Assembly: GCA_021812505.1 (NCBI GenBank)
Contig: JAKANG010000032.1
Location: 1 to 8,563, forward strand
From: Pseudomonadota bacterium
Lineage (GTDB): Bacteria > Pseudomonadota > Alphaproteobacteria > Rhizobiales > Beijerinckiaceae
Reading direction: 5' to 3'
DNA length: 8,563 nt
Under the pieces are notes generated by a model. That model was not told the DNA's origin. It searched no databases and saw only the letters and a list, made by a program, of their open reading frames with translations. How positions within the stretch are numbered: position 1 is the stretch's first letter; the number at the start of each line of letters is the position of its first letter. The position numbers and the translations under genes were made by a program. Positions 2,712 through 6,578 of the stretch are shown here, piece after piece.

Positions 2712-2717
2712 CGGCCT

Positions 2718-3188
2718 TGCCCAAATCGCACGTGCCTGTGGTCGTGTGTCGGTTGGCGGAAATCCGGACAAGAGGCCGGAGAAACGCCTGAGAAACAAAC
2801 CGGCAGCCGGAGGCGAACCGGCGAACCCCGTCTGAACGGGGGATCGCGACTTAAAGCAACGACGGACCGGGCTTTTTCGTCTCTGTCGGCCCTCCAAAGG
2901 CCGGCTTACCGAAGAGGCTAGTCTTTCTTGCCGGGCGTGCGGAACGGGTTCTCCCATTCCAATCGAAGGCCGCAGAATTAACTTGGATGGCGCGACGCCT
3001 TCCGGGTTTTTCGCGTCCACGGCGCAGCACCCGATCGCCAGGCGGCGTTTTATCGTCGCATGAACGGTCCTGGACGGCGTTGTCATCTGCTGCTCGCGTC
3101 TCCATCGCGCGAGAGCGGACGACTGTCGTTCGTCCTTCCGAAGCTCTGTTTGTCCTGGCGGGAAACCGCCCTTCGAAGGGATGCCGCG
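2718..3188 (+). promoter_or_regulatory. Long structured 5' leader of ornithine decarboxylase (candidate speF-type cis-regulatory RNA)
   Basis: About 470 bases without a convincing gene contain a chain of strong hairpins. H1 (2755-2788) has GGCG/CGCC outer and TCCGG/CCGGA inner stems around a symmetric GAAA/GAAA internal loop. H2 (2821-2847) has CCCCGT/ACGGGG closed by a CTGA loop over an outer GCGA/TCGC stem. H3 (2885-2905) pairs GTCGGCC with GGCCGGC, extendable by CTCT 2881-2884 with AGAG 2913-2916. H4 (2941-2960) pairs GGAA-C-GGG with CCC-A-TTCC over TTCT. GGCG/CGCC (2989-2999) lies before a T5 run at 3007-3011. CGCC/GGCG (3036-3047) is followed directly by TTTT, and CGCC 3036-3039 can instead pair with GGCG 3021-3024. 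H7 (3117-3135) pairs GGACGA with TCGTCC. A speF leader family is known upstream of alphaproteobacterial ornithine decarboxylases, so that is my first guess, but I cannot match the consensus from memory. The 5' end depends on the candidate promoter. Confidence 0.55.
3157..3180 (+). promoter_or_regulatory. Ribosome-binding-site switch: GAAA tetraloop hairpin versus SD-sequestering hairpin
   Basis: GGCGG (3157-3161) pairs with CCGCC (3166-3170) around a GAAA tetraloop. Immediately after comes the perfect palindrome CCCTTCGAAGGG (3169-3180), which can fold as CCCT/AGGG over TCGA. The two helices share C3169-C3170, so both cannot form fully. The second buries GAAGGG (3175-3180), the ribosome binding site eight bases before the decarboxylase ATG at 3189. 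A further anti-SD, CCTTC at 3134-3138, lies upstream and overlaps the 3' arm of the 3117-3135 hairpin. The complementarity is seen directly; translational control is inference. Confidence 0.5.
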
Positions 3189-4331
3189 ATGACCGATCGT
3201 ATCCTTGAATTCCTCCGCGACCGCCGCGAAAAGGGGCTGGACTCCGGCCCGTGCCTGGTCGTCGATCTCAACGTCGTGCGCGACAATTACGACGCCTTCG
3301 CCAAGGCGTTGCCGGACACCCGCGTCTTTTACGCCGTCAAGGCCAATCCCGCGCCGGAAGTCCTGTCGTTGCTGGCTTCGCTCGGCTCCTGTTTCGATTG
3401 CGCCTCGGTTGTCGAGATCGAACAGGCGCTCGCGGCAGGCGCGGCCCCCGACCGCATCTCCTTCGGCAATACGATCAAGAAGGAGCGCGATATTTTCCGC
3501 GCCTTCGAATTGGGCGTCCGCCTCTACGCTGTCGACTGCGATGCCGAGGTCGAAAAGGTCGCGCGCGCCGCGCCGGGCTCGAAAATATTCTGCCGCATGC
3601 TCTGCGAGGGCAATGGCGCCGAATGGCCGCTGTCGCGCAAATTCGGCTGCGCGCCGGACATGGCGCCGCGAGTCCTGGAACATGCGCATCGCCTCGGGCT
3701 GGAAGCCTATGGCCTGTCCTTCCATGTCGGGTCGCAGCAGCGCAATCCGCGCATGTGGAACGGCGCGCTGAAAAGCGTGGCCGGCGTCTTCCGCGAACTG
3801 GCCGAGCGGGGAATCAATCTCCAGATGGTCAATCTCGGCGGCGGCTTCCCGACGCGCTATCTCAAGCGCGTGTCGAGCGTGCGCACCTATGGCGACGCCA
3901 TCTTCGGGGCGCTGCGACGACATTTCGGCAACCAGATCCCGGAGACGATCATCGAGCCGGGACGCGGCATGGTCGGCGACGCCGGCATGATCGAGGCGGA
4001 AGTCGTGCTGATTTCGAAGAAGTCGGACGACGACAAGGTCAAGTGGGTCTATCTCGACATCGGCAAGTTCAACGGGCTCGCCGAAACCATGGACGAGATG
4101 ATCCGCTATCCGATCCGCACCGATTTCGATGCGGACGCGCGCGAGCCTTGCGTCCTCGCCGGCCCGACCTGCGATTCGGTGGATGTGCTCTATGAAAAGG
4201 AGCCCTATCTGCTGCCGGTCAGTCTCGAAATCGGCGCGAAAGTGCTGATCGAGGGAACGGGCGCCTATACGACGACCTATTCCGCCGTCGGCTTCAACGG
4301 TTTCCCGCCTCTGCAATCGTTCGTGATCTGA
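3189..4331 (+). CDS. speF: Ornithine decarboxylase (PLP-dependent, alanine-racemase fold; possibly ornithine/lysine)
   Basis: This 380-residue cytoplasmic enzyme decarboxylates L-ornithine to putrescine and belongs to the eukaryotic-type fold III family. The PLP lysine is K51 in YAVKANP. Other family sites are HVGSQ (179-183), GGGF (217-220) and EPGR (256-259) for phosphate binding, and C328-D329 in AGPTCDSVDVL, the catalytic Cys-Asp pair contributed across the dimer. Family members in alphaproteobacteria can also take lysine, and the specificity helix cannot be judged by eye. The start is ATG 3189, with GAAGGG at 3175-3180 as ribosome binding site. The frame stays open back to an ATG at 3060, but that would add 43 Arg-rich residues with no family resemblance and would consume the structured leader. 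It is the first gene of the polyamine block, and hss downstream uses its product. The symbol speF follows alphaproteobacterial usage; odc would be equally apt. Confidence 0.94.
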   Translation: MTDRILEFLRDRREKGLDSGPCLVVDLNVVRDNYDAFAKALPDTRVFYAVKANPAPEVLSLLASLGSCFDCASVVEIEQALAAGAAPDRISFGNTIKKERDIFRAFELGVRLYAVDCDAEVEKVARAAPGSKIFCRMLCEGNGAEWPLSRKFGCAPDMAPRVLEHAHRLGLEAYGLSFHVGSQQRNPRMWNGALKSVAGVFRELAERGINLQMVNLGGGFPTRYLKRVSSVRTYGDAIFGALRRHFGNQIPETIIEPGRGMVGDAGMIEAEVVLISKKSDDDKVKWVYLDIGKFNGLAETMDEMIRYPIRTDFDADAREPCVLAGPTCDSVDVLYEKEPYLLPVSLEIGAKVLIEGTGAYTTTYSAVGFNGFPPLQSFVI

Positions 4332-4447: not shown

Positions 4448-5014
4448 ATGAACCAGATCGCTTCCGTCCCGGCCATCGCCGACCAGATTGTCATCCGCGC
4501 TGAATCCGCGCTTGATTTCCTTGCGCGTGAAGCCCTGCTCGATCGCGCTTTCGGTCTCGATCGCTGGCGCAAGACCTGCGAGCGCCTGCGCGAAGGCCGC
4601 CTTCCGGCGCCGGGCCTCGCCTTTTCCGCGATCCGCGGCGGCGTTCTCGTCGGCACGCTGCGTTTCTGGTCGATCAAGGCCGGAGACGCGCACGACGCCT
4701 TGCTGCTCGGCCCGATCGCGGTGAGCGCGTCCCTGCGCTCGCAGGGCCTTGGCGGCGCGATGATCCGGCTCGGCCTCGAGCACGCCCGCGCGCTCGGCCA
4801 CAAGGCCGTGATCCTCGTCGGCGACGCGCCTTATTACGAGCGCTTCGGCTTTTCGCGCGTCGGCGCGGAACACCTCGACCTGCCGGGCCCGGTGGAGCTG
4901 GCGCGTTTCCTCGCGCTGGAGCTGGCGCCGGGCGCGCTCGCCGGCGCGCAAGGCATGGTGCGCGCGACCGGCGCCTTCAGCGAGTCCGAAGGCGACCGAC
5001 GCCTCGCGGCGTAA
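4448..5014 (+). CDS. GNAT-family N-acetyltransferase (YhbS-like), unknown substrate
   Basis: This 188-residue protein has the GNAT fold, which transfers acetyl from acetyl-CoA to an amine. Motif A is clear at LGPIAVSASLRSQGLGGAMI (87-106), with the pyrophosphate-binding R97-S-Q-G-L-G102. It is followed by a helix ending ARALGHKAVILVGD (113-126) and the motif B segment YYERFGFSRV (129-138), in which a tyrosine usually serves as general acid. This arrangement resembles the YhbS-type (COG3153) acetyltransferases. The start is ATG 4448, five bases after a strong GGAGG (4438-4442). It lies between ornithine decarboxylase and homospermidine synthase on the same strand. From position one may infer a role in polyamine or ornithine acetylation, but the sequence does not reveal the substrate. 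The C-terminal 30 residues are Ala/Gly-rich and less conserved in appearance. Confidence 0.88.
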   Translation: MNQIASVPAIADQIVIRAESALDFLAREALLDRAFGLDRWRKTCERLREGRLPAPGLAFSAIRGGVLVGTLRFWSIKAGDAHDALLLGPIAVSASLRSQGLGGAMIRLGLEHARALGHKAVILVGDAPYYERFGFSRVGAEHLDLPGPVELARFLALELAPGALAGAQGMVRATGAFSESEGDRRLAA

Positions 5015-5144: not shown

Positions 5145-6578
5145 ATGACTGACTGGCCCGTTCATGGCCGCATTTCCGGCCCGATCGTGATGATTGGCTT
5201 CGGCTCCATCGGCAAGGGCGCGCTGCCTCTGATCGAGCGGCATTTCGAATTCGACAAGAAGCGCCTCGTCGTCATCGACCCCTGTGACGTCGATCGCGAG
5301 ATCGCGGAAATCCGCGGCTATGAATTCATCAAGGCGGCGGTCACCAAGGACAATTACCGCGAGCTTCTCGTTCCGCTGCTGACCCGCGGCGGCGGCCAGG
5401 GCTTCTGCGTCAATCTCTCCGTCGACACCTCGTCGCTGGCGATCATGGAGCTGTGTCGCGAGATCGGTTCGCTTTACATCGATACCGTGATCGAGCCCTG
5501 GGCCGGCTTCTATTTCGACAAGCACCTCGGCCCGGAAGCGCGTTCGAACTACGCCCTGCGTGAAACGGTGCTGGAAGCGCGCCGCAAGAACCCCGGCGGC
5601 GTGACCGCCATTTCCACCTGCGGCGCCAATCCCGGCATGGTGTCCTGGTTCGTGAAACAGGCGCTGGTCAATCTCGCCGCCGATACGGGCGACACGGCGC
5701 CTGAGCCCAAGACCCGCGAGGAATGGGCGGCGCTCAGCCACCGGCTCGGCGTCAAGGGCATCCATATCGCCGAGCGCGACACCCAGCGCGCCAAGAATCC
5801 CAAGCCGCGCGGCGTATTCGTCAACACCTGGTCGGTCGAAGGCTTCGTCTCGGAAGGCATGCAGCCGGCCGAACTCGGCTGGGGCACGCATGAGACCTGG
5901 ATGCCCGAAAACGGCCGCACCCACAAATTCGGCTGCGGCGCCGCGATCTACCTGTTGCAGCCGGGCGCCAACACCCGCGTGCGCAGCTGGACCCCGACGC
6001 CCGGCCCACAATACGGCTTCCTGGTCACCCACAACGAGTCGATCTCGATCGCGGATTATTACACCGCGCGCAACGACAAGGGCGAAGTGATCTATCGCCC
6101 GACCTGCCATTACGCCTATCACCCGGCCGACGACGCCGTGCTGTCGCTGCATGAAATGTTCGGCGCCGGCGGCAAGGTGCAGGAAAAGAACCACATTCTC
6201 GACGAGCACGAGATCGTGGACGGCATCGACGAGCTGGGCGTGCTGCTCTTCGGCCACGCCAAGGGCGCCTATTGGTATGGCTCGCAGCTCTCGGTCGAGG
6301 AAACCCGCGCCCTCTGCCCCTATCAGAACGCCACGGGCCTGCAGGTCTCGTCGGCGGTCCTGGCCGGCATGGTCTATGCGCTGGAAAATCCGAACGAAGG
6401 CATCCTCGAAGCCGACGAGCTCGACTACAAGCGCTGCCTCGAAATCCAGCGCCCCTATCTCGGACCGGTGATCGGCGCCTATACCGACTGGACCCCGCTC
6501 GCCGGCCGCCCCGGCTTCTTCCCCGAGGACATCGACGAAAGCGACCCTTGGCAGTTCCGCAACATTCTGGTGCGGTGA
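5145..6578 (+). CDS. hss: Homospermidine synthase
   Basis: This 477-residue NAD-dependent enzyme makes sym-homospermidine from two putrescines (or putrescine plus spermidine) in the cytoplasm, releasing ammonium or diaminopropane. The N-terminal Rossmann fold has G18-F-G20-S-I-G23 and an acidic strand end, VVIDPCD (42-48). The length equals that I recall for the structurally characterised Blastochloris viridis enzyme, and residues reported there for the active site occur at the same positions: E117, N162 (GANPG), E210, W229 (the cation-pi tryptophan, in NTWSVEG) and H296. The numbering match is from memory of that enzyme. ATG 5145 has AGAAGGA (5131-5137) seven bases upstream. The gene closes the polyamine block begun by ornithine decarboxylase, whose product it uses. 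The stop is TGA 6576-6578, followed by a hairpin. Homospermidine replaces spermidine as a major polyamine in many Rhizobiales. Confidence 0.97.
   Translation: MTDWPVHGRISGPIVMIGFGSIGKGALPLIERHFEFDKKRLVVIDPCDVDREIAEIRGYEFIKAAVTKDNYRELLVPLLTRGGGQGFCVNLSVDTSSLAIMELCREIGSLYIDTVIEPWAGFYFDKHLGPEARSNYALRETVLEARRKNPGGVTAISTCGANPGMVSWFVKQALVNLAADTGDTAPEPKTREEWAALSHRLGVKGIHIAERDTQRAKNPKPRGVFVNTWSVEGFVSEGMQPAELGWGTHETWMPENGRTHKFGCGAAIYLLQPGANTRVRSWTPTPGPQYGFLVTHNESISIADYYTARNDKGEVIYRPTCHYAYHPADDAVLSLHEMFGAGGKVQEKNHILDEHEIVDGIDELGVLLFGHAKGAYWYGSQLSVEETRALCPYQNATGLQVSSAVLAGMVYALENPNEGILEADELDYKRCLEIQRPYLGPVIGAYTDWTPLAGRPGFFPEDIDESDPWQFRNILVR

Follow-up and report, generated by a model that had tools for sequence, protein, structure and literature searches.

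The speF leader of E. coli and Salmonella, in which the speFL peptide undergoes arrest on ornithine, controls an ornithine decarboxylase gene whose product has a fold other than that of the enzyme treated here. Two Rfam families are closer to the present locus, ar45 (RF02347) and speF (RF00518), and the former has been covered, together with its sister families, by a later survey. Corbino et al. (2005) published the ar45-speF pair as one 'extended speF element', in which conservation begins near the putative start site and a stem able to carry a four-way junction is followed by an 80-nt bulged stem-loop and then by conserved blocks to which no structure was assigned (PMC1273637). When the A. 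tumefaciens RNA was analysed by in-line probing, ornithine, lysine, diaminopimelate, putrescine, cadaverine and spermidine were all unbound; homospermidine was not among these six metabolites (Corbino et al., 2005; PMC1273637). The founder of the ar45 family is, as we read it, SmrC45 (Smr45C) from Sinorhizobium meliloti, an RNA of 181 nt with a mapped 5' end and a 3' end assigned to a terminator U-run (PMC2780559). The Bartonella counterpart Bbar45 is transcribed separately, and BbspeF lies within a transcript of more than 700 nt (PMC7717549). The ar45 element is also present in Methylosinus sporium, where its function is described as unclear (PMC12403871). The sections of the S. meliloti and Bartonella papers available to us present ar45 as an autonomous sRNA and contain no proposal of attenuation (PMC2780559, PMC7717549).

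The window, i.e. the whole stretch of 8,563 nucleotides analysed in this work, carries genes for a cytidine deaminase and MdoG (minus strand), then the leader and genes for ornithine decarboxylase (ODC), a GNAT acetyltransferase, a saccharopine-dehydrogenase-type protein, a DUF1007 protein and a NicO transporter. All features described in the following lie on the plus strand. The regulated gene (3189-4331) encodes a COG0019-type ODC of the alanine-racemase fold (Pfam Orn_Arg_deC_N, 183.5 bits), and its start is placed at 3189 because the tblastn alignments to most relatives begin with the first or second residue of the protein. It is followed by the GNAT gene (4448-5014, Pfam), probably the second gene of an operon, and by a gene for a protein with saccharopine dehydrogenase domains (5145-6578, Pfam) that is homospermidine synthase-like and that we take to be homospermidine synthase (HSS). 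HSS is located downstream in all nine same-genus loci compared, one of which is cut by a contig end; in two of the nine (L273 from G584 and L276 from G589) no GNAT match was found between ODC and HSS.

The leader (2717-3188) is a tandem of ar45 (2719-2876; cmscan, 65.3 bits, cut-off 40) and, after a gap of 7 nt, speF (2884-3045; cmscan, 56 bits, cut-off 37), which extends over 2884-3019 in the whole-genome search; either family has a single match in the genome of origin. As the pair has already been published as one element, the finding is ordinary in kind. The locus agrees with the extended speF element in its site before ODC, the order of its parts, its sequence and the P1 hairpin, and with the S. 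meliloti ar45 in sequence, bulged closing stem, U-run end and place before speF. An earlier note, prepared from the DNA sequence alone, had predicted a structured leader of about 470 bases that controls a polyamine gene, possibly as a speF leader. The fold of 2717-3200 indeed beats dinucleotide shuffles (z -2.66; 1 of 100 shuffles equally good), as do those of 2717-2880 (z -2.23; 4 of 200) and 3046-3200 (z -2.59; 3 of 200), and the energy of 2880-3045 is ordinary by the same comparison (z -0.58; 64 of 200). With these values, the position of the ODC start, and both conservation and covariation present among relatives, where their lack would have spoken against it, the leader can be regarded as real. 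Its cis-regulatory nature is supported by the Rfam match and by the co-occurrence of speF with ODC, and the remark that no ligand is established still holds. The assignment to speF stands with regard to the match to RF00518, while the 5' third turned out to be the separately named ar45, and a third conserved hairpin outside the Rfam model also belongs to the element.

Upstream of ar45, a putative promoter can be read in the sequence (CTTGCG, a 17-nt spacer and TATGTT; 2683-2711), from which transcription would start at about 2715-2719. TTG occupies the -35 place in all of the 133 leaders in which ar45 is readable and the upstream DNA is long enough, and [CGT]TA the -10 place in 107 of them; a generic promoter scan of the window did not list the 2683-2711 promoter. 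The ar45 element itself consists of a bulged closing stem with a four-way junction on top (arms 2747-2805, 2806-2822 and 2826-2841), and the minimum-energy fold of 2717-2880 yields a stem and junction of this type. Two of the odd closing elements mentioned in the earlier note, a CTGA loop (2826-2841) and a GAAA/GAAA internal loop (2759-2762 versus 2781-2784), were recovered as parts of the arms of this junction; a third, a C-A mismatch, could not be assigned to one stem. The third-arm loop, CUGA in the window, reads CUCUCCA in eight other leaders (L022, L116, L137, L146, L175-L177 and L180), close to the P3 loop described below. A CRISPR-DR28 match at 2820-2843 (25.6 bits, below the cut-off of 35) was discarded, as it is an arm of ar45.

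At the base of the closing stem GCCC (2719-2722) pairs with GGGC (2869-2872) and UUUUU follows directly, which by sequence and fold gives ar45 a terminator-like end (2869-2877). Among the 135 leaders selected for a readable ar45 3' end with GGGC, every one has at least four T within 7 nt after GGGC and 131 have GCCC at the 5' end. The outer pairs are nearly invariant and covariation is therefore unable to test them. Internal loops interrupt the U-run stem, and a simple terminator scan that accepts only loops of 3-8 nt did not list the ar45 end. In relatives, the whole element ranges from about 74 to 306 nt; its top is highly variable in size and the strands of the closing stem are near-constant. 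Its most conserved piece contains a perfect palindrome, GCACGTGC (2728-2735), which, judged by sequence, could serve RNA dimerisation or constitute a DNA site just past the start.

In the speF element, hairpin P1 (2885-2905; loop CUCCAAA, 2892-2898) shows compensatory changes: all six pairs are changed on both sides, each in at least one of 68 relatives. UCCA occurs within the P1 region in 111 of the 115 leaders that carry GAAGAGGC. This motif belongs to the conserved speF core (2911-2971; conservation and alignment), together with UUGCC, GUGCGG, a small GGG/CCC hairpin, UCCAANC and GGC. The core is mostly invariant, so covariation is silent there. GUCUCU (2879-2884) is able to pair with AGAGGC (2913-2918), a rival to the Rfam pairing AGGC:GCC, and since both sides are near-invariant covariation is of little help in this case as well. 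Between speF and P3, a block at 3017-3031, CCACGGCGCAGCACC, is kept in the genus, largely also in genomes without ODC, and in L003, L153 and L174 from related genera.

Beyond the Rfam model, there is a third conserved hairpin between speF and the start codon, present in about half of the relatives. This hairpin, P3 (CUCGCG-UCUCCAUCG-CGCGAG; 3093-3113), has a 7-nt loop, CUCCAUC (3100-3106), with a U-G closing pair, and appears in the minimum-energy folds of both 2717-3200 and 3046-3200. UCCA is the most over-represented four-letter word in hairpin loops of the spacers from speF to ODC (74 of 153 spacers; 4.2 expected from shuffles), 24 of these re-anchored spacers having been placed by ar45 alone with P3 possibly clipped. 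With the earlier anchors, which started too early in 12 of 145 spacers and so allowed P1 or ar45 arms to enter the count, the corresponding counts were 85 of 145 for UCCA (4.6 expected) and 65 of 111 for strict P3. When 66 leaders were picked by the word UCUCCA only, its flanks fell into one pairing register, with values of 0.80, 0.88, 0.95, 0.76, 0.74, 0.61 and 0.53 at the seven innermost pairs.

Covariation was assessed on set A1, for which the 94 of 145 leaders that contain TCTCCA once only were reduced to 67 rows, three of which (L083, L119 and L139) are misplaced. On A1, 74.6% of the P3 cells pair, and sliding the register lowers this to 34-45%. The covariation score of 0.563 compares with 0.204 after shuffling and with no more than 0.234 after sliding, and double-sided changes affect 125 cells (shuffled 62). 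All seven pairs show a double-sided change, a count no better than in shuffles (mean 6.4; 205 of 500 reach it), and the two innermost pairs vary little. Strict P3 occurs in 63 of 118 non-redundant spacers versus a mean of 0.62 and a maximum of 3 in 100 rounds of shuffling, and seven control words gave 0-1. Over all leaders it was found in 72 of 153 and not in the other 81, in some of which the spacer is clipped; the 81 include a Bartonella (L172) and Rhizobiaceae, the latter of which keep UCUCCA in another stem. Four leaders, one from a Bartonella, lack UCCA in the spacer with either anchor set.

Under model R1, the window's P3, itself a training member, scores 31.4 bits and is the best of 150 candidates scored in its own genome (next 22.1), and the ODC leaders of five same-genus genomes that were not used for training score 29-34 bits. 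The idea of a wider family of P3-bearing genes was dropped after a scan of 13 genomes, in 12 of which 150 candidates and in the remaining one 67 were scored: matches outside ODC leaders reach 26.5 bits, and the sole repeated non-leader pair (L251/L253, the ODC-less leaders aside) is open in several frames.

The loops of P1 and P3 share the layout N-UCCA-NN. The 145 leaders examined contain 504 hairpins whose loop is 7 nt long, and in 163 of these UCCA fills positions 2-5 of the loop, namely in 90 P1 hairpins, 70 in the 3' spacer and three others; the runner-up motif, UCUC, accounts for 45 of the 504, mostly in the third arm of ar45. Such a UCCA loop is present in both P1 and the 3' spacer in 43 of these leaders and in neither in 27. 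We infer that P1 and P3 together may form a two-site landing place for a candidate trans factor. ANTAR and CsrA targets are known twin-hairpin binding sites of regulatory proteins and likewise consist of two hairpins sharing a short loop motif; they differ in that the loop here is N-UCCA-NN, about 200 nt separate the hairpins in the window and no binder is known. Two other explanations of the loops were rejected. Kissing of UCCA with a UGGA loop inside the leader would find a partner in only 3 of the 504 7-nt-loop hairpins. The loop of tRNA-Trp(CCA) resembles CUCCAAA, but tRNAs have a purine at the position after CCA, and P1 and P3 are not regarded as copies of its anticodon arm because a pyrimidine often follows CCA in the leaders.

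Across the class, ar45 was detected in 12 and speF in 12 of 289 alphaproteobacterial genomes; 11 contain both, invariably spaced by 7-9 nt. Among 297 genomes at the order level, speF was matched in 145 (118 above the cut-off) and ODC in 151 (E up to 1e-100), with 144 in common, and both lie on the same contig in 142 of the 143 genomes for which both places are listed. In G339, a speF match (26 bits) sits on another contig than ODC, and ar45 pieces are located upstream of ODC. Two matches are likely false positives, ar45 in G260 (L013; 29.5 bits; no ODC) and speF in G321 (26.6 bits; lacking ar45 strands and GAAGAGGC). The leader set was derived from 233 fetched loci plus the window, 170 of which carry ODC and 156 of which gave unique leaders; the copy from the window's own genome was later set aside. 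All 102 fetched speF-derived loci (L001, L014-L054 and L174-L233) carry ODC by tblastn. Named loci were selected by an ar45 motif and conservation of this motif was therefore counted on speF-matched genomes, where the exact 15-mer is present in 73 of 101 leaders and absent within three mismatches in four. ODC was not detected by tblastn at 63 of the 119 motif-picked loci listed; these 63 are chance 14-mer matches or loci cut short of ODC.

ODC is missing in three of nine same-genus genomes, G582 (L269), G586 (L270) and G587 (L271), where the best match is about 30% identical. Between mdoG and GNAT-HSS, these loci keep the ar45 core, P1, GAAGAGGC, the loop of P3 and, around the ribosome-binding site, CCCTTCGAAGGG; what is left of ODC is, as judged by eye, a short remnant resembling both ends of the gene. 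As the remnants resemble each other, the loss looks shared by the three, and it is possibly tolerated since a PF01276-family decarboxylase is present in all nine genomes. The ODC-less leaders were identified by position, sequence and Rfam ar45 match: with cmscan, each of them matches ar45 (54.5-57.8 bits) and only L270 reaches the speF cut-off, and the P3-model E-values of 0.02-0.05 in these genomes lie within background, with the leader not the best match in G586. Outside the eroded speF block, 76 of 81 group-conserved columns are identical between L269 and L270 versus 186 of 233 elsewhere (p 0.003, with columns treated as independent), and the two other pairs give 75 of 81 versus 186 of 231 and 80 of 81 versus 196 of 222. 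One P1 pair is changed on both sides, from C-G to U-A, in the same-genus comparison. On the other hand, two of the three show erosion in the 3' half of the speF core, and part of the ODC-less leader may simply be decaying; the evidence stems from three related genomes. Since the leader outlives ODC, it would act at the level of the operon or in trans and not only on ODC translation.

Our preferred reading, which we regard as having an even chance of being correct, is that the ar45-speF tandem is the leader of an ODC-GNAT-HSS operon, with attenuation at ar45 and a trans factor acting on P1 and P3. RNA polymerase would start at about 2717, some transcripts would end at the ar45 U-run and give rise to the ar45 sRNA, and read-through would produce the ODC-GNAT-HSS mRNA. 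Something acting on those bulges in the ar45 stem that are invariant in sequence would set the fraction of read-through, and the UCCA loops of P1 and P3 would form a bipartite site for one trans-acting factor, a protein or an sRNA, controlling the read-through mRNA. The proposal of termination at ar45 draws on the sequence and on RNA data from the literature, whereas both the factor and the control step are presumed. No antiterminator was seen on unsystematic inspection. In contrast to the ar45 sRNA family as described, ar45 would thus be the 5' portion of the ODC operon transcript, released by termination, and not a stand-alone gene.

The opposite case, that ar45 is an independent trans-acting, Hfq-binding sRNA merely located before a separate speF leader, appears rather doubtful to us, although several observations point in its direction. 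SmrC45 co-precipitates with Hfq in S. meliloti (PMC2848018), smrC45/SpeF is tabulated among trans-sRNAs (PMC7143759) and ar45 has been considered to be possibly transcribed independently (PMC2573895). Furthermore, ar45 survives the loss of ODC and, among the seven of 297 genomes with ODC and without a speF match, ar45 pieces occur at four of six examined ODC loci (G334 was left out; none were seen at G330 and G369). Against this stand the distance between ar45 and speF, which is 7-9 nt in all 11 genomes of the class sample that contain the two, and an alignment in which, by eye, no conserved second promoter block separates ar45 and speF. The terminated leader would also be able to act in trans, and an independent sRNA is therefore compatible with attenuation at ar45.

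We consider it unlikely that the leader is a metabolite riboswitch in which ar45 and/or speF form an aptamer that directly senses a polyamine such as homospermidine. The very high conservation of unpaired parts and a gene context of ODC and homospermidine synthase would suit such a function, but the A. tumefaciens RNA left six pathway metabolites unbound upon in-line probing (PMC1273637).

Close to the start codon, the stretch 3157-3180 contains a GGCGG-GAAA-CCGCC hairpin and CCCUUCGAAGGG, which by its sequence could cover the ribosome-binding site; within the genus CCCUUCGAAGGG is conserved except for one change in two genomes. That P3 hides the ODC ribosome-binding site through loop pairing of UCUCCA with UGGAGA is very improbable: of 155 leaders, 98 have GGAG in the ribosome-binding region, but only 21 have UGGAG and only 18 UGGAGA, the site in the window is GAAGGG, and by eye the site offers no match to UUUCCA and GUCCA, two variants of the loop. 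A leader peptide stalling ribosomes on ornithine in the manner of the E. coli speF leader, to which the same enzyme activity and a long leader might point, is scarcely credible, since in the speF core the spacing of two conserved blocks falls almost evenly into all three frames (39, 37 and 35 of the 111 leaders that show the pattern) and ORF lengths scatter. The conserved part able to hold an upstream ORF thus bears out the earlier note's statement that the leader contains no convincing gene; the locus resembles the E. coli and Salmonella system in the control of an ODC gene and differs from it in that no conserved translated upstream ORF was found in the conserved speF core, nor was RNA similarity noted.

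Beyond the literature searched, this work adds the covarying P3 hairpin and leaders that persist after the loss of ODC. The 2005 paper could assign no structure to the last 150 nt of the extended speF element (PMC1273637), and P3 with its matching UCCA loop supplies one there. No description of P3 or of leaders without ODC was found in the open-licence literature searched, and one may exist elsewhere. More generally, and tentatively, it is conceivable that the element is a control RNA that acts independently of ODC, at the operon level and/or in trans, with ar45 as its terminated form and N-UCCA-NN of P1 and P3 as the bipartite site for an undescribed RNA-binding protein or sRNA that controls polyamine synthesis across the alphaproteobacteria. 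No ligand has become known for the regulatory RNA speF since 2005, and P3 with the twin UCCA loops offers a concrete, mutable site for finding the missing factor. The survival of the leader without ODC suggests control of the whole operon or control in trans, which it fits better than control of ODC translation alone, and tests directed at ODC translation alone could miss what the leader does.
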